Part shown: positions 3,426 through 29,494 of the stretch, piece by piece
Numbering within the stretch: position 1 is the first letter of the stretch
Layout of the letters: each line of letters begins with the position of its first letter
Assembly (NCBI GenBank): GCA_021781555.1
Contig: JAJXWQ010000028.1
Coordinates: 1 to 41,527, forward strand
Reading direction: 5' to 3'
DNA: 41,527 nt
Source: a bacterium
GTDB lineage: Bacteria > Cyanobacteriota > Sericytochromatia > S15B-MN24 > VGJW01
Notes under the pieces: generated by a model
Seen by the model: only the letters and a program-made list of their open reading frames with translations
The model's database searches: none
What the model was told of the DNA's origin: nothing
Made by a program: the position numbers and the translations under genes

Positions 3426-6400
3426 ATGCCGCAACTTGCCAACCGCTACGAGGTCCTCGAGACCTTGGGCGAAGGCGGCATGGGCCAGGTGCTCAAGGTC
3501 CGGGATCTGGCGACCGATCGTCTGGTCGCCCTGAAGCTCCTGCGCCCCGGCGTGGGCACGGTCCAGCACCTGCAACAGGAATTCTGGACCATGACCCGCC
3601 TGCGCCACCCGCGCACGGTCGAGGTCTTCGATTACGGCACCCTGCCCGACCAGACGCCGTACTTCACGATGGAACTGGTCGAGGGCAAGGCGCTCGCGGA
3701 CCTTCCCGCGATGCCGGCCGAACCGCTCACGGTGGCGATCGCCCAGATCTGCGACGCTCTGGCCTACATCCACGCGCAGGGCCTGGTGCACGGCGACCTC
3801 AAGCCCGCCAACATCAAGCTCACGCCCGCAGGCGAGATCAAGCTCATCGACTACGGCCTCATGCGACGGAGCGGTCAGGCGGCGGACTCCATTCGCGGAA
3901 CTCCGCACTACCTGGCCCCCGAGGTCATTCGCGGCGGGCCGATCGATCGCCGGGCCGATCTCTACTCCCTCGGCGCCCTGGCATACCACCTCCTGACGGG
4001 CCGGCCGCCTTTCGACGGCCCGACCCTCGTCGAGATCCTCAAGCAGCACCTCGACAAAGAGCCGGCCCCGCCCGGCGCCCTGGCCCCGTGCCCGGTCGAA
4101 CTCGAGGGCGTTTTGCTGCGCCTGCTCGCCAAGGATCCGCTCTCGCGTTTCCAGTCCGCCGGCGAGGTCACCATGGCCCTCGGGCGCGAATCACCGGCCC
4201 AGACGCCCGGCCACTCCTTGCTCGCACCCGTCTTCGTGGGGCGGTCCTCGGAACTCGATGCGCTGGCGACGGAATTCGGCAGGCAGCAGTCAACCGCCGT
4301 GCTTGTCGCGGGCGAGCCCGGCATCGGCAAGAGCCGGATCCTGGGCGAGTTCCGGGTCAAGGTGCAGCTGGCGGAGGTGCCCTCGGCGATCGCCATTTGC
4401 CACGAGCAGACCGAACTCCCCTACGATCCCTGGATCTCTCTGCTGCGCCAGCTCCTGCCCCAGGCCCAGCTGGCCGCGCCACGTCTGGTCGAAGCCCACG
4501 CCCCGATCCTCGCGGCCATCCTGCCCGAGCTGGCGACCGCAGCCGCCCTCAGTCCCGGCACCCAGGGACCGGGCGAAGCTGGCAACAAGGGGCACCCTGA
4601 CCGCAGCGAGGGCGAGCCGACCGGCGGCTCAGGGCGCGCGATCGTCAAGCTGGGGCCGCGCGAGGACGCGCTGCGGCTCGCCGCCGCCGTCTCGGAGATC
4701 CTGTACGCGATCGCCGATGCCAGGGCACTGGTGCTGTTCTTCGAGGATCTGCACTGGCTGGACGAGGCCAGTGGCGAGTTGCTGGGCTACCTTCGGCGCG
4801 GCGCCGTCGACCACCCGCTGATGATCGTGGGGACCAGCCGGCGGGCCGATCTGGCCACCTTTGCCGATGCCAGGCTCCTGCTGCTCGGTCCCCTGCCGGG
4901 CGAAGACATCGCGGTGATGATCGCCTCCATCCTCGGCGGGGGGTACGTCCCGATGCCCTTCGTCGAGACGGTCTCTCGCCTGGGCGGCGGCAATCCCCTG
5001 CAGGTCGAGGGCCTGCTCCGCCACATGGCCGACACCGGAGTGTTGCAGCCCGAGGGCGATCGCTGGATCCCTGCGGGCGAGCCGGATCCGAGCAGCCTTC
5101 CTTCTGCCCTCCAGGATCTGGTCGCCGCCCGGCTCGACCGGGTCCCGGCCGGCGCCAGGGACCTGGCGAGCATCCTGGCCGTCGCGGGTCGGCAGGCGCC
5201 GATCGACCTGCTCGCCGAGGTGTGGCAGCAAGACGCCGAGGCTCTGTTCAAGGCCCTCGCCGAGCTCCAGGCCGAAGGGCTGGTCACCGGCGTCGGCGGC
5301 GAGTTCGACTTCGCCCAGCCCACGACCCGCCAGATCGTGTACGAGGGCCTGTCCGGATCCGGGCGCAAGGAGCTGCACGGCCGCCTGGCGCAAATTCTCG
5401 AGAATCGCCTGGCCGCCGCAGATCCTGACCGCGCCCTGGTCCTGGCGCACCATCACCTCGCCTCGGCAGCTCCCGAGTCCGCGCTGCCGTTTGCCCTGCC
5501 TGCCCTCGAGAGGGCCTTCGAACTGCACGCGCACGGGCAAGTCCAGCACATCGCCGCAGCGACCCTGGCCCTTCCTGTTGCCGGCACGGCCCGATTCCGG
5601 GCGGATGCGAGCCGCACCTCGGGCCCCCTGCCCATGGCCCCGACCGATGCCCGGAGCCGCGCCCGCACCCTGCTCTTGCTGGGCGACGCCCAGCGCCTGC
5701 TCGGCGAGACCCAGCAGGCCCTGGCGGCTTTCGACGAGGCCGCCGAGATCGCCGGGCAATACGACTTATCGGCGCAGGCGGCCCGGGCGCACGTCGGCGC
5801 GGGCCGGTCGCTGCAGATCCGCGGGGAGCTGACGGCGGCCGCTTCGCGCATACGCCAGGGCCTCGATCTCGCAGGCGACGATGCCCAGCTGACCTGCCGG
5901 GCCCTGTGCCAGCTGGGGCGCATCGCGTACTTCGCCTCGGATCTCGAGACCGCGACCGGCCACTACCAGCGGGCGCTCGCCGTGGCCCGAGAGCACGGCC
6001 TGGTCGCCGCCACCGCCGAGGCCCTCTCCTTCATCGGCTTCGCCTTCGTCACCGGTCATCCAGATCGCATCGAGGAAGGCCTGGCTCTGCTGCGGGAATC
6101 CCTGGCACTGCGGGCGGAGATCGGCGATCGCCTCGGCCTCCTGGATACCCAGATGATGCTGGGAAATTCCTTTCTGGCCCTCGGCTGGTACCCCGACGCA
6201 GCCGAGTGCTTCACCCAGGCCCAGCGGCTCGCCTACCTCGCAGGTCACAAGGACGAGGAGGTCTTCACCTACCTCAACCTCGCCATCGTCGCCCTCGAGC
6301 GCGGCGATTTCGCCGCCTGCGACGAACATGCCCGCCTGGGGGAGCAAGGGAGCGCGATCACCCACGACCGTTACACCTCGGCCATTGCTCGGATCCTCAG

Positions 6401-8801
6401 GGCCATGGCCCACCTCTACCGCGGCGAGCTCACGGATGCCCTGGCCATGGTCAAGGACGCCAGGGAGCAGGCCAGCCAGATCGAGCACCGGTACCTGTCG
6501 ACCGTCCTCGGGACCTACGAGGCAGAATTCTGGTTGGCGCTCTGGCAGCTCACCGACGCCAGGCAGAGTGCCGCGGCGGCCCTGGCGGAGGCCGAGAAGA
6601 CCGGCAGCGGCGACCTGGTGGGCCCCCTCTTGATCCTGGTGGGTACCCTCGGCGCCCTGGCAGGGGACCGCGCAGCGGCCAAGGAACATCTCGAGCGCGC
6701 CCACCAGGCCGCCACATCGGCGCATGCCAAGGGCCTCCTGGCCAAGACCGAACGCGGCCTGGCGATCTACGAGGCGGCCGACCACCGACCGGAAGCGGCC
6801 CGCGACCATGCGCTGGTCGGGCTGGTCCTGGCCCGCGAGATCGGAGCGCGGTACCTCGAGGGCGAGCTCGACCTGCTCCTTGGCGACGCCTGCAACGCCA
6901 TGGCGCGTCCGGCGGAGGCCATCGAAGCCTTCCGGGAGGCGCTTGCACTCGGAACCGAGATGGCCACCCCCGAGCTGGTCGCCCGGGCCCACCTGGGACT
7001 GGCCCAGGCCGATCCACCCCAGCAGGCCGCCAGCGCCCGCCTGGCCCGCGAGCAGCTGTTGCGGCTGGCCGGCGACCTGCCGGCTCCCCTTGGCGCCGCC
7101 TACCGCGAGCGCTGGAATCAAGATCTGGGGCCGGATACCGGGGCTGCGACACGACCCACGACCGGCGGCCCGGAGACCGAAGACCTGCGGCGGCTGCAGC
7201 ACGAGAAGGCATTGCTGCAGGTCTCGGCCCGCCGCCTGCAGCAGCTCGTAGACTTTTCCCTCGACGTCGGGCAAATCCACGATCTCGGTGTGCTGCTCGA
7301 TCAGGCCCTCGATCTCGTCATCGAGGCTGCCGGTGCCGAGCGCGGTTTCCTGCTCCTTTTCGAGGGCGGGGTCCTCAGCTGCCAGGCCTACCGCAATCTC
7401 GACCCCAAGACGACCTTCGACTTCCACATCTCCCGCTCGATCGCGCAGGAGGTGCTCGATACGGCCAGACCGCTGTGCCTGGTCGACGCCCTGAACGACG
7501 ATCGCTTCAAGAACCAAGAGAGCATCTTGGCCCTGCGACTCCGCACGGTCATCTGCGTCCCCCTCAAGATCCGCGACGTCGTCGTCGGCGTCATCTACGT
7601 CGATCGCCAGAGCATCAACGCCGAGTTCACCGGCTCGGATCTCGATTTCGTACTCTCGCTCGCAGCATTGACATCCAACGCCATCGAGAACGCCAACCTC
7701 GTCGCCGAGTGGCAGGACGAGCACGACAAGCTCTCGCGCCTCGACCGACTGGCCCGGGAGATCGGCGTCCCGGTCGACGCCGAGGAGATTCTCGTGGTCG
7801 CCCTCGGCGCGGCCCTCGATCTCGCCAGGGCCGATCGAGCGGTCTTGCTGTTCTGGGAGAACGAGCGGCTCGATCCCAGGGTGGCGCTGGATCGCGACGG
7901 CCCCATGGTCGCCAGTCCCGAAATCTCGATGTCGACCTGCCTGTCGGCCGTCGAGACCGGCCAGCCCGTCTGCATCACCGATCCGCAGCAGGACCCGGAT
8001 CTCGATGCCGACCCTGCCGGCCCCTCCGCCACGAGCCACGCCCCCCCCCCTGCCGTCCTGGCGGGCGCCCGTACGACCCGCATCGCGATGCCGCTGCTAT
8101 CCCACGGAACTCTGCAGGGAGTGCTCTACGTCGAGGCACCGTCGCCCCCGCTGGTCTTCACCTCCCGCGACGTCGAGATCCTCGAGTCCGTGGCTGCCCA
8201 TGCGGCCTGGGGCATCGAGAACGCCAGGATCCTTGGCCAGCTTGCCCGCCGGACTTCGGAGCTCGAGCGCACCATGCGCCTGTACGAGGAAGCCAGCTTG
8301 CGCGCTGCCACCGACGTCCTGACCGGCCTCTCCAACCGGCGCGCCTTCCAGGACGAACTCGACCGGGAGATGGTCACCGCCCGGCGCCGGCATCGCGACC
8401 TGGCCGTCTTGCTGATCGACATCGATCATTTTCGCAGCTTCAACGAGACCTACGGGCACCACGTGGGCGACGCGGTGCTGGTGGCGATCGGCCAGGTGCT
8501 GCTGAAGCTCATCCGCGCCAGCGATCGGGTGGCCCGGTACGGCCCCGAGGAGTTCGCCGTGGTGCTCCCCGAGACGGATCTCGCCGGGGCCCGGATCGTT
8601 GCCGAGCGCGTCCGTCAGGCCGTCGCGGAGCTGCAGTTCACCGAGAGCGTCCGGCCCGTGACGGTTTCCATCGGCGTGGCCAACCTCGAGGCCCAGGACG
8701 AGCGTTTCGCCGAGCTCCTCGAGCGCGCCGACCAGGCGCTCTTCGAAGCCAAGAACCGCGGCCGCAACTGCGTCCAGGAGCCCTCCCAAGCCCCGGATTA
8801 A
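3426..8801 (+). CDS. Ser/Thr kinase - AAA - TPR - GAF - GAF - GGDEF
   Basis: A 1,791-residue cytoplasmic signalling protein with no membrane segment. Residues 1-260 are a Hanks-type kinase: Gly loop GEGGMGQV at 15-22, Lys37, HGDLKPAN at 122 (HGD, so a non-RD kinase), DYG at 142-144 instead of DFG, and an APE motif. Next comes an AAA_16-type ATPase with Walker A GEPGIGKS at 296-303 and a FFEDLHWLDEA Walker B region. TPR-like helices fill about 740-1225. Two GAF domains follow (about 1270-1425 and 1440-1605), then a GGDEF domain (about 1628-1785). Its signature is GPEEF (1706-1710), while the upstream RxxD inhibitory site RASD is kept. Cyanobacteria have similar kinase-AAA-GAF proteins ending in a histidine kinase; here the output is a diguanylate cyclase-type domain. 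A C10 run lies at 8041-8050. It is convergent with ftsY, and the two stop codons overlap. Confidence 0.95.
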   Translation: MPQLANRYEVLETLGEGGMGQVLKVRDLATDRLVALKLLRPGVGTVQHLQQEFWTMTRLRHPRTVEVFDYGTLPDQTPYFTMELVEGKALADLPAMPAEPLTVAIAQICDALAYIHAQGLVHGDLKPANIKLTPAGEIKLIDYGLMRRSGQAADSIRGTPHYLAPEVIRGGPIDRRADLYSLGALAYHLLTGRPPFDGPTLVEILKQHLDKEPAPPGALAPCPVELEGVLLRLLAKDPLSRFQSAGEVTMALGRESPAQTPGHSLLAPVFVGRSSELDALATEFGRQQSTAVLVAGEPGIGKSRILGEFRVKVQLAEVPSAIAICHEQTELPYDPWISLLRQLLPQAQLAAPRLVEAHAPILAAILPELATAAALSPGTQGPGEAGNKGHPDRSEGEPTGGSGRAIVKLGPREDALRLAAAVSEILYAIADARALVLFFEDLHWLDEASGELLGYLRRGAVDHPLMIVGTSRRADLATFADARLLLLGPLPGEDIAVMIASILGGGYVPMPFVETVSRLGGGNPLQVEGLLRHMADTGVLQPEGDRWIPAGEPDPSSLPSALQDLVAARLDRVPAGARDLASILAVAGRQAPIDLLAEVWQQDAEALFKALAELQAEGLVTGVGGEFDFAQPTTRQIVYEGLSGSGRKELHGRLAQILENRLAAADPDRALVLAHHHLASAAPESALPFALPALERAFELHAHGQVQHIAAATLALPVAGTARFRADASRTSGPLPMAPTDARSRARTLLLLGDAQRLLGETQQALAAFDEAAEIAGQYDLSAQAARAHVGAGRSLQIRGELTAAASRIRQGLDLAGDDAQLTCRALCQLGRIAYFASDLETATGHYQRALAVAREHGLVAATAEALSFIGFAFVTGHPDRIEEGLALLRESLALRAEIGDRLGLLDTQMMLGNSFLALGWYPDAAECFTQAQRLAYLAGHKDEEVFTYLNLAIVALERGDFAACDEHARLGEQGSAITHDRYTSAIARILRAMAHLYRGELTDALAMVKDAREQASQIEHRYLSTVLGTYEAEFWLALWQLTDARQSAAAALAEAEKTGSGDLVGPLLILVGTLGALAGDRAAAKEHLERAHQAATSAHAKGLLAKTERGLAIYEAADHRPEAARDHALVGLVLAREIGARYLEGELDLLLGDACNAMARPAEAIEAFREALALGTEMATPELVARAHLGLAQADPPQQAASARLAREQLLRLAGDLPAPLGAAYRERWNQDLGPDTGAATRPTTGGPETEDLRRLQHEKALLQVSARRLQQLVDFSLDVGQIHDLGVLLDQALDLVIEAAGAERGFLLLFEGGVLSCQAYRNLDPKTTFDFHISRSIAQEVLDTARPLCLVDALNDDRFKNQESILALRLRTVICVPLKIRDVVVGVIYVDRQSINAEFTGSDLDFVLSLAALTSNAIENANLVAEWQDEHDKLSRLDRLAREIGVPVDAEEILVVALGAALDLARADRAVLLFWENERLDPRVALDRDGPMVASPEISMSTCLSAVETGQPVCITDPQQDPDLDADPAGPSATSHAPPPAVLAGARTTRIAMPLLSHGTLQGVLYVEAPSPPLVFTSRDVEILESVAAHAAWGIENARILGQLARRTSELERTMRLYEEASLRAATDVLTGLSNRRAFQDELDREMVTARRRHRDLAVLLIDIDHFRSFNETYGHHVGDAVLVAIGQVLLKLIRASDRVARYGPEEFAVVLPETDLAGARIVAERVRQAVAELQFTESVRPVTVSIGVANLEAQDERFAELLERADQALFEAKNRGRNCVQEPSQAPD

Positions 8802-22727: not shown

Positions 22728-24707
22728 CTAGCCTTCGGCCACGGCCTCGTCATCGGCACCCTCCTCGGGCGGCAAGAGCGGCTCGAGGGCCTGGACGACC
22801 ACGCGGCTCGAGGGATTGAGCAACAGCGCGTTGGTGGTGCCGCCGCGGGGGTTGGGAACCTGCCTGGGAACGAAGGTGCGCAAGTAGCAAAGCAGGTTGA
22901 TCCAGAAGTGCACCTGCTCGCCCGGCGTGGGGCCTGCGGGCACTGCGGCCGTCTCGGGTTCGACCACCGCGATCATCGTGCCCGCCTCGCCCGCCAGCAC
23001 CTCGGCTCCCGAGCACACCGCCGGGGCATCGGAGCGCGTCCCGAGCGGGGGGATCTCGGCTGCGGCATCGGATTCCGCTCGTTCGGCCCCCGGCTCGACG
23101 GTCGGAACGCCGAACAGCCGCGCCACCTCTCTCTGGTAGGTGCTGCGGGCGATCCAGGCCCGACCTCGGAGCTCCTCGTGCATCAAGCGGATCATGGCGT
23201 CGCGCAGTTCGAGGATCTCGCAGCAGCGCGCGTGCTCGCGCTCGAGATAGACCTGGCTGGCCGGTGGTGCCGAGAGCGGGATCTGCCCCTCCTCGACGTC
23301 TTCCTCACCCGAGGGGGACAGCGGCTTGGCGACGCGCACCATCTGTGAACCCTTGGCGGCGTCGAGAATCTCCTTGGCCTCGCGGCGAGCCTCGGCGGGC
23401 GGGCGGCCATCCGAGGTGAGCTTGTCGGCGATGCGCTCGAGAAGCTTGCTGGCCGCCATCCAGGCGTGGCCGTGCTCGATCAGGTGGGCATCGACCGCGC
23501 AGATGAGGAGCTCCTCGGGGCCGGAGTACGACCCCGCCGCCAGGTGCTTGACGATGAAGTGTTCCGGATTGAGTCGCACGAGCTTGACCTTGATGGCAGG
23601 GTCCCGCTTGTGCGGAACCTCCTTGGTCAGCAGGACATTCGTCTCCTTGAGCCAGGAAAGCCAGTTGTGGACGCGATCCAGGGCAAGATCCGGAAACACC
23701 GACTGGAGCTGATCGCGCAGCTTGCTGAAGCTGGGGTTGAAGGGCCCCGTCAAGGTGTCCGCGAGGATCTTCAGGACGTTGTCGATGACGGCGCGTGCCT
23801 CCTGCACGCGAGCGTGGTCTTCGGCCAGGCGGAAGCGCCGTATGGTCTTGGCCTCTCCCGTGTGGTGGTCGTTCAACCGGACCTCTTCGCTGGTGAAGAG
23901 CTCGGAATTGACGGCGCTCTTGAGCCACGTCTCCCGCTCCTCCTCGCTGAGGCCGGCCAGGTTCTTTTGGTTGAGGAAATCGAGGAACTTGGCGAAGGTC
24001 ACGAAGCCGAAGTTGTTGGCTTTCATGTAGTAGTCGCAGTACACGACCAGGGCGTCCAGAGTCGAGAGCGTGCCGGGCCGATCGCGCAGCTCCACCGTGG
24101 GCGTCGGCTGGCGCGGCTCGATGGGAGCCGTACCCGATCGCGAAGCGGCCGCGCCTCGCAAGGAGAGCGGAGCCGACCGCGAGGTCTGCCGGACGGGAAA
24201 CGACGGGGCAGAGCGCAGCAGATCTGCCAGCAGGTCGTCCAGATGGGCGAAGTCCGAGCCGTAGGTCTGCAGGGTGTGGTTGGTCGCCCCCCGCACGCCC
24301 CAGATGATGGCTCGCTTCTGGTTGAACATCAGACGCTGAACGATCGGCTGGTAGCCTCGATCGCCCGTCGCGATGATGTAAGTCGAGATCTCCGGGCGCC
24401 GGCTGATGAGGTCGTTGATCGCGTTCTGGATCTTGAGATCGGCGTTATTGGCGCCGGTCAGGTTCAAGATCACATCGAAGGTGTACTGGTTATAGGCCTG
24501 GGCGTGGTGGCTGAATTCTGACTTGGTCCAATCCGCCACGGTGGCCCAGTACTCGAGTTCGCCCCAGTCGCGGCAATGATCCAGCAGAGCCTGGGCCAGG
24601 TCGGCGGCGAAGTCCTCCTGGACGATCGTCCCGCCATAGGCCTTGCGCAGGCTGAGCCAGATGTTCTCGTGATCGACGAATAGCGCGCAACGCACCGGGT
24701 TGGTCAT
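22728..24707 (-). CDS. NYN-domain (LabA-like PIN-fold) protein
   Basis: A 659-residue protein beginning with a NYN domain, a PIN-like nuclease fold. The acidic site positions are present: VDHENI (Asp12), NNADLKI...INDL and ATGDRGYQPI. LabA-type NYN proteins are typical of Cyanobacteria. After about residue 180 come three helical, winged-helix-like stretches (LVVYCDYYMKANNFGFVTFA; FSKLRDQLQSVFPDL; AWMAASKLLERIADKL) that resemble tandem RNA-binding OST-HTH/LOTUS modules, though this is a weak match. The acidic C-terminal part is unassigned. I chose ATG 24707; upstream TTG and GTG codons are alternatives. It is divergent from the Mod-Res pair across 183 bp, so it may be co-regulated with them. 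RNA cleavage is inferred from the fold only. Confidence 0.85.
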   Translation of the reverse strand: MTNPVRCALFVDHENIWLSLRKAYGGTIVQEDFAADLAQALLDHCRDWGELEYWATVADWTKSEFSHHAQAYNQYTFDVILNLTGANNADLKIQNAINDLISRRPEISTYIIATGDRGYQPIVQRLMFNQKRAIIWGVRGATNHTLQTYGSDFAHLDDLLADLLRSAPSFPVRQTSRSAPLSLRGAAASRSGTAPIEPRQPTPTVELRDRPGTLSTLDALVVYCDYYMKANNFGFVTFAKFLDFLNQKNLAGLSEEERETWLKSAVNSELFTSEEVRLNDHHTGEAKTIRRFRLAEDHARVQEARAVIDNVLKILADTLTGPFNPSFSKLRDQLQSVFPDLALDRVHNWLSWLKETNVLLTKEVPHKRDPAIKVKLVRLNPEHFIVKHLAAGSYSGPEELLICAVDAHLIEHGHAWMAASKLLERIADKLTSDGRPPAEARREAKEILDAAKGSQMVRVAKPLSPSGEEDVEEGQIPLSAPPASQVYLEREHARCCEILELRDAMIRLMHEELRGRAWIARSTYQREVARLFGVPTVEPGAERAESDAAAEIPPLGTRSDAPAVCSGAEVLAGEAGTMIAVVEPETAAVPAGPTPGEQVHFWINLLCYLRTFVPRQVPNPRGGTTNALLLNPSSRVVVQALEPLLPPEEGADDEAVAEG

Positions 24708-24746
24708 GCTCACCAAAAAAGATCCCAAAAAACAGAGCTGACGGTC

Positions 24747-24890: not shown

Positions 24891-27197
24891 TTGAGCCCAC
24901 GCCCCCCGCTCGAGCCGCTGCCCGGTTGGAACGGAGCTATCCCGCTCGACCGCGAAGCGGACGGCCGCTGGCTGGTCGACCTCGATCCCCTGATCGACCC
25001 GATCCTCTGCTGGTCCGGCAAGGCCTCGGCAAGGCCCATGGGCGGCCTGCCGCTGCAGCGCGCCGAGATCGTCCCGGCCTCCCAGCTCGGCCGCATCGCC
25101 CGGCGGGCGCTCGGCCCCGATCGCCAGGATCGAGTGGAATGGTTCGAGCATGCCGAAAACTGGCGCAACCGTCTCATCAGCGGTGACTCGCTGCCGGTGA
25201 TGGAGGCGCTCCTGCGCCACGAGCGGATGGCCGGTGCGGTCCAGGCGGTGTACATGGATCCGCCCTACGGCATCAAGTACGACGCCAACTTCCAGCAGCG
25301 CGTCGATCGCACCCGCAACGACTCCGACCAGACCAGCGACGACGTCCTCACGATCAAGGCCTTCCGCGACACCTGGGTCCTGGGCATCCACTCCTATCTC
25401 TCCTATCTCCAGGAGCGGCTCTACCTGGCCCGGGAGCTGCTGGCGGCGAGCGGGTCGATCTTCGTGCAGTCGGGCGATCGCAACGTCCACCTGGTCCGCA
25501 ACGTGATGGACGAGGTCTTCGGGGCACGCAACTTCGTGGCGATCATCCCCTTCCGCAAGAAGACGATGCCGCTCGGGGCCCGCCACCTCGACGGGATGGT
25601 GGATTTCCTCGTCTGGTACGCCAAGGATCTGGAATCCCTCAAGTATCACCAGCTCTACCTCGAGCAGGATATCCAGGGCGAATTCCACTGGAAGGCCTAC
25701 GATACCCCAGCCGGGCAGACCTGCCGGATGACGCCCGAACAGCAGGGCGATCACCGGCTGCTGCCTCCAGGCGCCCGCCCCTTCCGGCTCGTTTCGATGA
25801 AGGCGCCAGGCTATTCCGCCGGCAACGACTTCGCGATCGAGATCGACGGCACGCGGTACCCGCCGCCCCGGGGAGGCTCCTGGATCACCGGCTCCGAAGG
25901 CATCGCCCGGCTCAAGGCGGCCGGCAGGCTGGCCCTGGATGGCAAGACCGTGGCATTCAAGCTCTTCCTGGACGACTTCCCCCTGGCCAAGCTCACCAAT
26001 CTCTGGTCGGACACCGTCGGGGCCTTCGACAAGGCATACGTCGTCCAGACCAGCGAGGAAGTCGTCCGGCGGTGCCTGTTGATGTCCACCGATCCCGGCG
26101 ACCTCGTGCTGGACCCCACGTGCGGCTCGGGGACGACGGCCCTGTGCGCCGAGCGCTGGGGGCGCCGCTGGATCGCCTGCGACACCTCGCGGGTGGCGAT
26201 CCACGTGGCCCGCCGTCGCCTGCTGGGAGCCTCCTTCGAGCCGTTCCTCCTGCTGGGGCCCACCCCCGCCGACGGCTTCACCCTGAAGACGATCGAGCGG
26301 CGCACCCTGCGCACCATCGCCGGCGGCCTCGAACCCGAGCGCATCGCGCTGGTCGACCGCCCCACCGTAAAGAAAGGCGTCCTGCGGGTGGCCGGGCCCT
26401 TCGAGATCGCTGCCGTCGGGCGCTATGCCGAGGCCGACTGGCACGCCTCCGTGCAGACGGAGGACGGGCTCGAGAACTACATCGAGGTTCTCTGCCGCCT
26501 CTATGCGCCTGATGCGCGCATCGAGGTCTTCGGTCTCGTCCACGCCGTCTTCGAGACCGCCGCAGGGCTCGCAGCCCTCTCGGTCGGTCCGCTCGCGGGG
26601 CAGGTGACCGCCAGCCAGGTCGAGGACGCCGTGCAGGATGCCCGGACGCTGGGCATCTCGGAGCTGCACCTGCTCGGCTGGGCCTTCGAAGCCAACCTCG
26701 GCGCGACCCTCGATCGCCTGGCCGCAAAGGCTGGCGATCCCCCTATGGCAGTTCGCCTCGTCGCCATCCGACCGGACGCCCTGGCCCGGGGCTTGAAGCC
26801 AGGCACCGGGGACCGGCTGTTCGCACCGCAGGGCAACCCCGAGGCCACCCTCGAGAATTTGCCCGACGGCAAGCTCCAGGTGAGGCTCCACGGGCTGACG
26901 CTCCCGGATCGCCACGGGACCGAGACCGTCACGCACGCGATCGACTCGGGCTACATCGCGGCCTGGTACCTGGACGAGGCCTTCGACGGCGACTGCTTCG
27001 TGGATTCGCAGATCTTCCTCGACCTCTCGCGAGCTCCCAACCTCAAGGCCCTGCTCAAGGTGGACATCGACCCGGAAGAATACAGGCTGCAAGCCTGCTC
27101 TCGTCCCTTCGAGCCACCGCAGAGCCACCGCGTGGCCGTCCGGGTGACCGACGTCCATGGCAACGAGTCGTCGGTCGTGCTGCCCGTTCCAGGGTGA
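24891..27197 (+). CDS. Type III-like DNA methyltransferase (Mod)
   Basis: A beta-class site-specific DNA methyltransferase of 768 residues, expected to methylate adenine N6. Motif IV DPPYGIKY at residue 123 precedes the SAM-binding motif I LDPTCGSGTTALCAERWGR (Asp408), the beta-class order. The region between (about 200-380) should hold the target-recognition part. It resembles the Mod partners of the two-gene type III-like systems found with a DEAD/DEAH Res protein, though it is shorter than I recall for that family. The start is TTG 24891, with only a modest GGAG upstream. Its stop overlaps the GTG start of res by 4 bp (GTGA), so translation is coupled. Both catalytic motifs are intact. Confidence 0.92.
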   Translation: MSPRPPLEPLPGWNGAIPLDREADGRWLVDLDPLIDPILCWSGKASARPMGGLPLQRAEIVPASQLGRIARRALGPDRQDRVEWFEHAENWRNRLISGDSLPVMEALLRHERMAGAVQAVYMDPPYGIKYDANFQQRVDRTRNDSDQTSDDVLTIKAFRDTWVLGIHSYLSYLQERLYLARELLAASGSIFVQSGDRNVHLVRNVMDEVFGARNFVAIIPFRKKTMPLGARHLDGMVDFLVWYAKDLESLKYHQLYLEQDIQGEFHWKAYDTPAGQTCRMTPEQQGDHRLLPPGARPFRLVSMKAPGYSAGNDFAIEIDGTRYPPPRGGSWITGSEGIARLKAAGRLALDGKTVAFKLFLDDFPLAKLTNLWSDTVGAFDKAYVVQTSEEVVRRCLLMSTDPGDLVLDPTCGSGTTALCAERWGRRWIACDTSRVAIHVARRRLLGASFEPFLLLGPTPADGFTLKTIERRTLRTIAGGLEPERIALVDRPTVKKGVLRVAGPFEIAAVGRYAEADWHASVQTEDGLENYIEVLCRLYAPDARIEVFGLVHAVFETAAGLAALSVGPLAGQVTASQVEDAVQDARTLGISELHLLGWAFEANLGATLDRLAAKAGDPPMAVRLVAIRPDALARGLKPGTGDRLFAPQGNPEATLENLPDGKLQVRLHGLTLPDRHGTETVTHAIDSGYIAAWYLDEAFDGDCFVDSQIFLDLSRAPNLKALLKVDIDPEEYRLQACSRPFEPPQSHRVAVRVTDVHGNESSVVLPVPG

Positions 27198-29494
27198 GCG
27201 CTGCGTTTGCGGGGCGCGTGGTCACATGTGACGCCTACGAAGAGCCCGACCGTCACCACGCCCGTCAGCTCGAGGGCTCGCGCATCCTGGTCGCCGGCCG
27301 GAGACCCAGTCCGATCGGCCTGGTCGAGTCCCTGCGCGCCGAGGTCCGCGCCTGGCGTCAGGCCGGGTACCCGGGCGTGTCGGCGGTCACCCGCGAGCTG
27401 CTGGGCTACTGGTTCGAGCGCGAAGCCGAGCGCACGACCGCAGGGACCCGGTTCTTCTTCTGTCAGCGCGAGGCGGTCGAGACCCTCGTATACGCCTACG
27501 AAGCCCGTGACCGCCTCGTGGTTGCCGAGACCGACGAGCTCGTGCGGTACGCCCTCAAGCTCGCCACGGGGACCGGAAAGACGGTCGTCCTCGCCCTCGT
27601 CATCGTCTGGGCGACCCTACATTCCACGCGGGTGCCGGGCTCCAGCCTCTCGCGCAACTTCCTGGTACTGGTTCCCAACTTGACCGTAAAGGATCGCGTT
27701 TCCGGCCGGTCGCGGGGCGATGGTCTGGATCCGGCGGGCGCCCGCAGCCTCTACCGGCTCTTCGACATGGTCCCGCCGCTCTGGCAAAAAGATTTTCGCC
27801 CGGAGGTTCGGGTCTGCAACTGGCAGGCGGTCCCGCTCGAGGGCCGACGGGACGACTGGCTCGAGGAAGATCTGGACGCCCCCGGAGGCCTGGTTCCCGC
27901 GTCGGTCCTGTGGGCCTGGCGCCGCCGATCCAGGCAAGGGCCCGCCGCAGGGCTCAAGAGGTTCCTCGGCCCCTGGCAGGATCTGATCGTCCTCAACGAC
28001 GAGGCCCACCACGCCCATGGCAAGAGGCGCTCGACGGCTGACGATGCGCCCGTGATGCTGCGCTGGACCGCACTCCTCCAGCACCTTGCCCGCCTGGCTG
28101 CCGTCCGCCTGGTCGTGGACGCTTCGGCGACGCCCTGGCGAGCCGACCCGGGCGCCGCGGCGCCGATCTCCGGTTCTCCCGGGCGCTCCAAGCACGCCGG
28201 GCAGGCCATTCCGTTTTCCTGGGTCATCTCGGACTTCACGGTCGAGGACGCCTGGGAGTCCGGCCTGGTCAAGGTTGTGCGCCTTCCGCTGGGAACGGTG
28301 GATCTATACTCGCAGACCAGGGGGGCCCGCGATGCCAGCGCGTTCATGGCGGGTTGTGGCGAGACCCTCGATGCGATGATCGAACGCTGGGCTCGCGCCT
28401 TCACGACCTGGCGCGCCCGCAACGAGCCGGTGCCGGCGCCCGTCCTGCTGATCGTGGTCCAGAATACCCGGCAGGCGTCCTGGCTTTTCGATCACATCAC
28501 GGGCCACCACGGGCTCCTCGCCAACCCGGATCCTGCCGATCCCCGCACCTGGGCGACGCTCCGCGTGGATCGGTCCGTCTTCGACGCGGATCGGGGCCTG
28601 GAAGGCACGCTTAGAGAGATGGTCGCGACGGTGGGCCTGCCGGGGGCGCCCGGGGAGAGCGTGCGGTGTCTCATCGGCGTCCAGATGCTGTCCGAGGGCT
28701 GGGATGTCCGGAGCATCACCCACATCGTGGGTCTGCGGGCCTTCGATTCGCCGCTGCTGGTCGAGCAGATCGTGGGTCGTGGACTCAGGCTGCGGAATTA
28801 CGACGTTCTCAACCTGGCGCTCGACAGCCGGTTGCCAGGGGCCGAGGAAAGTGTCGAGGTGGTCGGGATTCCCTTCGCCGGCTTCGCGATTCCCGAGCCA
28901 TCCGACACCATCGCGGCCGTGCCTGGCGCGCGGCCGGTCCATCCGGACCCCTCGAAGGAGGCCTACCGGATGGTCATTGCGAACGTGCGCGGATGGATTC
29001 CCGTCACGACGGCCGAGGGAATCCACCTGCACCCGCTCCACGGCCTGCCCGAGGCCTTCGATACGAAGCGCATGCCGACCTTCCGCTGGGCGGGGCTGAC
29101 GGCACCGGGCCGCAAGTGCCACCTCAACGCGGTGCCCTGCCGCGACGGCCGCGAGCAAGCCCTCGCCGGGTTCCTGGACCATGCCGCGGACGTCGAGCGC
29201 TATGTCAAGAACGAACGGCTGGGCCTGGCGATTCCGTGCGGGCGCAGCCTGCGGCATCCGCCCGCATTTCTGGCCAGAACCGACGCTGGCGCCCTGTGGG
29301 CCCTCGACCTCGAGCCATCTCCGGCCCCCGAGGCGATCGCCCGCTGGTGCGAGCGCCTCGGCATGCGCTATCGGTGCGTCGACCCCGAAACCCTGGACTC
29401 CCTGACGCAATCCGCCTCCGGGCGCCCGGCCACGCTCGAAATGCTGCTCGGCGACCCGGTCGGCGGAAGCCCGGGCCCGTATCCTCCGGGCTGA
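27194..29494 (+). CDS. Type III-like restriction helicase (Res), nuclease motif degenerate
   Basis: An SF2 DNA translocase, the expected partner of the upstream Mod. Helicase motifs are intact: Walker A ATGTGKT (124-130), DEAH (269-272), SAT (311-313) and motif VI QIVGRGLRLR (from 525). In active relatives the C-terminus carries a PD-(D/E)XK nuclease of the form YVKN...IPY...Y.PDF.V...L.LE.KG. Here YVKNERLGLAIP is kept, but the PD position reads PPAF (Asp to Ala, residue 691) and the E-x-K position reads LDLEP (Glu to Asp705, Lys to Glu707). Cleavage activity is therefore doubtful. It overlaps mod by 4 bp. A role in restriction, or in a non-cleaving process, is inferred. Confidence 0.88.
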   Translation: MSAAFAGRVVTCDAYEEPDRHHARQLEGSRILVAGRRPSPIGLVESLRAEVRAWRQAGYPGVSAVTRELLGYWFEREAERTTAGTRFFFCQREAVETLVYAYEARDRLVVAETDELVRYALKLATGTGKTVVLALVIVWATLHSTRVPGSSLSRNFLVLVPNLTVKDRVSGRSRGDGLDPAGARSLYRLFDMVPPLWQKDFRPEVRVCNWQAVPLEGRRDDWLEEDLDAPGGLVPASVLWAWRRRSRQGPAAGLKRFLGPWQDLIVLNDEAHHAHGKRRSTADDAPVMLRWTALLQHLARLAAVRLVVDASATPWRADPGAAAPISGSPGRSKHAGQAIPFSWVISDFTVEDAWESGLVKVVRLPLGTVDLYSQTRGARDASAFMAGCGETLDAMIERWARAFTTWRARNEPVPAPVLLIVVQNTRQASWLFDHITGHHGLLANPDPADPRTWATLRVDRSVFDADRGLEGTLREMVATVGLPGAPGESVRCLIGVQMLSEGWDVRSITHIVGLRAFDSPLLVEQIVGRGLRLRNYDVLNLALDSRLPGAEESVEVVGIPFAGFAIPEPSDTIAAVPGARPVHPDPSKEAYRMVIANVRGWIPVTTAEGIHLHPLHGLPEAFDTKRMPTFRWAGLTAPGRKCHLNAVPCRDGREQALAGFLDHAADVERYVKNERLGLAIPCGRSLRHPPAFLARTDAGALWALDLEPSPAPEAIARWCERLGMRYRCVDPETLDSLTQSASGRPATLEMLLGDPVGGSPGPYPPG

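Follow-up and report, generated by a model that had tools for sequence, protein, structure and literature searches.

A Type III-like Mod–Res operon whose Res subunit appears to have lost its nuclease but kept its helicase motor

The window analysed here, a stretch of 41,527 nucleotides that constitutes a single contig (C26) of genome G000 (3.8 Mb, 181 contigs), encodes a two-gene Mod–Res operon of the BPTD_3080 type. We consider it reasonably probable that this Type III-like system is restriction-dead and has been kept for methylation, together with a motor that survives but does not cleave. With its PD-(D/E)XK active site gone, and with it much of the spacer that follows the motor, Res would no longer cut DNA. 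Mod would still be a working m6A/m4C methyltransferase and the main target of selection, and the conservation of its recognition region at this locus in two genera would reflect an epigenetic, domesticated use with a regulatory role. Res itself would live on as a motor driven by ATP; it probably remains attached to Mod and may translocate or help with methylation, in either case without cleaving DNA. Such a system probably marks DNA without cutting it, and perhaps moves along it. As read from the sequence, the features behind this proposal are a lost active site, an open and coupled reading frame, intact motifs, purifying selection on Mod, and a constraint on the motor that outlasted the constraint on the nuclease.

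The operon, its neighbours and the methyltransferase

Mod (24891–27197, plus strand, 768 aa, TTG start) is classified as a beta-class N6/N4 DNA methyltransferase by Pfam (N6_N4_Mtase, 105 bits) and by PADLOC (MTase_III, 340 bits). Res (27194–29494, plus strand, 766 aa, GTG start) was identified as a Type III-like helicase subunit by its match to NCBIfam NF046055 (365.9 bits, below the curated cut-off of 800) and by Foldseek. Since the Mod stop and the Res start overlap by four bases (GTGA), the pair (24891–29494) forms a translationally coupled operon related to the BPTD_3080 Type III-like restriction family that this model describes.

The divergent neighbour of Mod codes for a protein with a Pfam NYN domain (22728–24728, minus strand, 666 aa). 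This gene is a family-conserved marker of the locus: it occurs in 5/5 genomes of the bacterial family, including G003, which lacks Mod–Res, and it adjoins an RSH gene wherever the contig permits the check, with or without Mod–Res. The order RSH–NYN–Mod is common to G000, to G001 (a sister species in the same genus) and to G002 (another genus of the family). The other neighbouring frames, named by eye, are housekeeping-like (adenine phosphoribosyltransferase-like, RSH-like, ABC-F-like and leucyl-aminopeptidase-like). A 1791-aa frame in the window (3426–8801, plus strand) has a start that resembles a Ser/Thr protein kinase (GEGGMGQVLKVRDL).

The initial annotation of this DNA had raised the idea that the system recruits another nuclease. 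Cleavage could then occur in trans, with a protein such as the divergent NYN protein doing the cutting as in CglI/NgoAVII. The adjacency of NYN and Mod in three genomes would suit this idea, as would the precedent of CglI, in which helicase and nuclease are separate proteins (PMC4267653). However, since the NYN gene is also present in G003 without Mod–Res, it is a resident neighbour, and because its distribution is independent of Mod–Res we reject it as the partner nuclease. NYN domains are, moreover, mostly RNases. Recruitment of another nuclease thus finds no support, and we regard cleavage in trans as highly improbable. A further restriction subunit elsewhere in G000, which is HsdR-like (L180, G000:C105), has an intact D..EAK nuclease site; therefore this genome has not undergone a general loss of restriction.

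Mod keeps the two motifs that had been read in it earlier, motif IV (DPPY, 25257–25268) and the SAM motif I (DPTCGSGTT, 26112–26138), both on the plus strand. The boundaries of its target recognition region (aa 220–385; 25548–26045, plus strand) were inferred from the beta-class motif order. Comparison with Mod of G001 gave a dN/dS of 0.205 overall, falling to 0.10–0.17 in the central catalytic segments. Purifying selection acts on Mod, and this by itself fits active restriction as well as epigenetic use. Simple repeats of the phase-variable kind are absent from mod, which contains only short repeats of 2–4 copies; in view of this missing repeat tract, we reject phase variation.

The nearest relative that we found for the operon is a virus-like contig (L094, IMGVR_UViG_3300031991_000072), with 46% identity in Res and 47% in Mod. 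Among 68 Mods, the recognition region of the window Mod is most similar to that of G002 (60–61% identity; next best 40%). Outside this region, L094 is closest to the window Mod for both the N-terminal catalytic part (71%) and the C-terminal part (49%), and the corresponding parts of the G002 Mod (L021, 8379–10643, minus strand) are closest to sequences other than L094. Two genera share a Mod recognition region at the same locus, although their nearest relatives differ for Res and for the remainder of Mod. This pattern suggests that domain swapping brought the region into a new backbone at the locus, or that specificity was retained across a turnover of the system, or that both Mods drew on a common source. 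The shared region would favour methylation specificity as the conserved feature.

The nuclease and the motor of Res

The C-terminal nuclease domain (29099–29449, plus strand) appears degenerate, with 7/15 conserved columns retained and a fold that is predicted with a pLDDT of 91.9. When 108 Res sequences were aligned, 102 of them showed D-E-(K/S/T) in the PD-(D/E)XK columns (88 DEK, 11 DES, 3 DET). The remaining rows are the window (A-D-E), family member G004 (D-A-E), G002, which has no nuclease domain, and three sequences that are truncated or split ahead of this domain. Codons and alignment both agree with the earlier assignment of the catalytic positions on the plus strand: A691 (GCA, 29264–29266) replaces the catalytic Asp, D705 (GAC, 29306–29308) the Glu and E707 (GAG, 29312–29314) the Lys. 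The surrounding YVKN..L.L.IP context is kept at 29198–29236, as had been reported. The catalytic D and E are kept in all 102 relatives with a nuclease domain, L094 included. Because the K707 column varies (S or T in 14/102), no single change argues more strongly than the loss of D691. Further losses concern the position directly after E707, where P708 stands in place of a G conserved in the comparators, the second conserved K, which follows the active site, and a conserved C-terminal W. These data uphold the earlier suggestion of an apparently dead nuclease, and the window Res should not cut DNA.

The initial annotation had also considered that the true PD-(D/E)XK residues might lie elsewhere in the protein. 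L094 carries its PDF...ETKG site at exactly the same positions, and the alignment to 102 relatives offers no alternative triad, so that we reject this placement. An activity that relies on the displaced residues E654, D705 and E707 has hardly any probability in our view. The domain is predicted to fold, E654 is invariant among relatives and kept in the window, and Glu-to-Asp at 705 is conservative, but the Asp of 102/102 comparators is Ala, and the window also lacks K707, G708 and the second conserved Lys. The isolated C-terminal domain model gave no significant match in the PDB (best E 0.19, VRR_NUC); VRR_NUC, LlaBIII and EndoMS, which are among the best-ranked names for this domain, belong to PD-(D/E)XK enzymes.

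The spacer from motor to nuclease (28790–29212, plus strand; motif VI to PxF) is shortened to 157 residues, compared to a comparator median of 289 (279–312). A deletion of this kind might in principle be an assembly error, an explanation that hardly works for the multiple point changes in the nuclease. Because L094 has an intact nuclease and a full spacer, the loss in the window is derived, which would make the window Res a disarmed form of an L094-like enzyme.

The helicase motor (27563–28789, plus strand) is intact, as the initial annotation had stated. It contains ATGTGKT (27563), DEAH (27998), SATP (28124), LSEGWD (28688) and EQIVGRGLR (28763), such that motifs I, II, III, V and VI of the SF2 motor of the BPTD_3080 restriction endonuclease (NF046055) are all present, and 67/74 of the columns conserved in ≥90% of the comparators are retained. 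A structure model of the full-length protein (pLDDT 82.4) found RadD, EcoR124I HsdR and EcoP15I Res as its best Foldseek matches. One BPTD_3080 Res in the alignment (L066, G086:C67) is interrupted just behind motif V (GWD) by an intein-like insert several hundred residues long.

Constraint on Res was judged by domain, since G001, the one other genome available from the genus, yielded no Res for dN/dS analysis. For this comparison we used columns that L094 keeps and that are conserved in ≥90% of 101 comparators. Here, Res of the window lost 3/69 helicase columns, all by conservative changes (M133L, S495G, V508I), and 7/14 nuclease columns (p = 8e-5). The retention of motor columns while nuclease columns were lost suggests that constraint on the motor outlasted constraint on the nuclease, although motor conservation could be inherited if the nuclease loss is recent. 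In a neutral simulation that lowered identity to ~0.6 or less and assumes neutrality from the time of nuclease loss, the frame remained open in 0/60 replicates, while the real Res frame is open.

Res in the bacterial family

Nuclease failure affects all three Res proteins found in family members, each in a different way: the window by its active site, G002 by deletion of the domain and G004 by an E-to-A change. The corresponding count elsewhere is 0/102 (p = 5e-6, kinship ignored). The comparators include 15 genomes over the cut-off in an NF046055 search of the phylum. G002 has the order RSH–NYN–Mod–Res of the window; its Res frame ends after ~600 residues, right next to a convergent gene, so that a nuclease would not fit in, yet 67/74 helicase columns are kept. 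The G004 Res is full-length and keeps PDF but has A in place of E. We reject contamination as the source of the G004 sequence, since its low GC (0.51) matches other fetched stretches of that genome.

In G001 a dispersed repeat lies directly 3' of the Mod stop, after which the contig ends. These 111 bases (L083:6533–6643, G001:C115) recur in dozens of copies with 94–98% identity in G001. No match to Res was found in the 111 bases or in the rest of the assembly (86% complete), and Res is likely absent from this genome. The same 111-bp repeat also occurs in G000, as one 89% copy (G000:C155) and many partial ones. One bacterial family displays stages of decay from a dead site (window) to a deleted domain (G002) to a Res that was not found (G001).

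The window Res goes with L094 and its intact nuclease, G002 is closest to Thermus/Sphaerobacteraceae, and G004 belongs to a cyanobacterial/Planktothrix group; in the Res tree itself, long branches left the window and G002 poorly placed. Res sequences from the same phylum group closely with Planktothrix, which would point to Cyanobacteriota and, together with genome traits, to a non-photosynthetic class. A phage collection contained no Res match. Since the three Res proteins have different relatives, each seems to have lost its nuclease independently. For the same reason, we abandoned the earlier idea that the substitutions are fixed in one nuclease-dead clade.

These losses bring up the scenario of plain decay, in which restriction has stopped, Mod is all that counts, and Res is on its way to becoming a pseudogene, with the motor as a leftover. 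The missing Res in G001, the deleted domain in G002 and, in the window, the shortened spacer and the lost residues of the nuclease are consistent with this scenario, and so is a mild excess of window-specific over L094-specific helicase changes (44 vs 27 on average). On the other hand, the Res frame is open, every motor motif is intact, helicase columns fared far better (66/69) than nuclease columns (7/14), and the coding GC pattern is constant over the whole gene. The decaying pseudogene that the initial annotation had considered is a poor fit to this pattern, which we read as not simple decay. We judge plain decay to be unlikely.

Persistence of motor constraint after nuclease loss would also suit a defence without cleavage, BREX-like but with two genes, in which Mod marks self and Res, though dead as a nuclease, starts translocating at unmodified sites and blocks the replication or transcription of invaders. 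At least two lineages of the family would have arrived independently at such a Mod–motor system by nuclease loss, blocking or remodelling foreign DNA from unmethylated sites, with the specificity of the locus retained and the rest replaced. The retained coupled operon points the same way, as does G002, which independently combines motor and methylase without a nuclease, and BREX sets a precedent for restriction without cleavage (PMC12707154). However, G001 keeps Mod where Res was not found, unlike a motor-dependent system, three independent losses resemble a relaxed need for restriction, and none of the BREX genes, whose core is PglX and PglZ, was noticed among the neighbouring frames. Taken together, this makes non-cleaving defence a rather doubtful explanation. 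With an operon kept for methylation as the preferred reading, the retained constraint makes it testable whether Type III-like motors work usefully without a nuclease.

Comparison with known systems

The window operon resembles the BPTD_3080 family (NF046055) by homology across the motor and the degenerate nuclease, by its two-gene Mod–Res arrangement with an adjoining DPPY methyltransferase, and by its K-C/S-H..N and YVKN..L.L.IP context. It differs from this family by a spacer that is shorter by ~130 residues, by loss of the catalytic D, E and K, and by its score under the cut-off. L094 has the same gene order at the identities given above, but has an intact PDF...ETKG site, a 293-residue spacer and a different Mod recognition region. 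As in Type III restriction–modification systems, Mod and Res are encoded together and Mod is of the beta class (DPPY before motif I, with the recognition region in between). Unlike in these systems, the window Res lacks the catalytic residues for ATP-dependent cleavage at two unmethylated sites. The predicted motor fold resembles that of EcoP15I (PDB 4zcf_C, among the best structural matches), a Type III enzyme that is distant in sequence and has an active nuclease. With BREX, the window would share by analogy the concept of methylation plus a motor without cleavage, but no homologous components have been demonstrated at the window locus.

A functional parallel may be the type III phasevarions. 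In Haemophilus influenzae modA and Neisseria modA11/modA12, res is inactivated (in Neisseria by a 250-aa in-frame deletion) and mod is retained, a state that has been proposed to reflect dedicated gene regulation (PMC2667262). The window would likewise combine a Mod that is kept under purifying selection with a loss of restriction by Res, and methylation is the proposed function; it differs in having no phase-variable repeat tract, in keeping the motor motifs and the frame, and in the Res family involved. According to the pan-genome survey by Oliveira et al., solitary methylases rarely arise from in-place decay of restriction systems (PMC4176335), and the bacterial family of the window looks like an exception to this rule. 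Inactivation of Res with retention of Mod is thus known from Neisseria and Haemophilus; what is unusual here is the repeated disarming within one family and the constraint on the motor.
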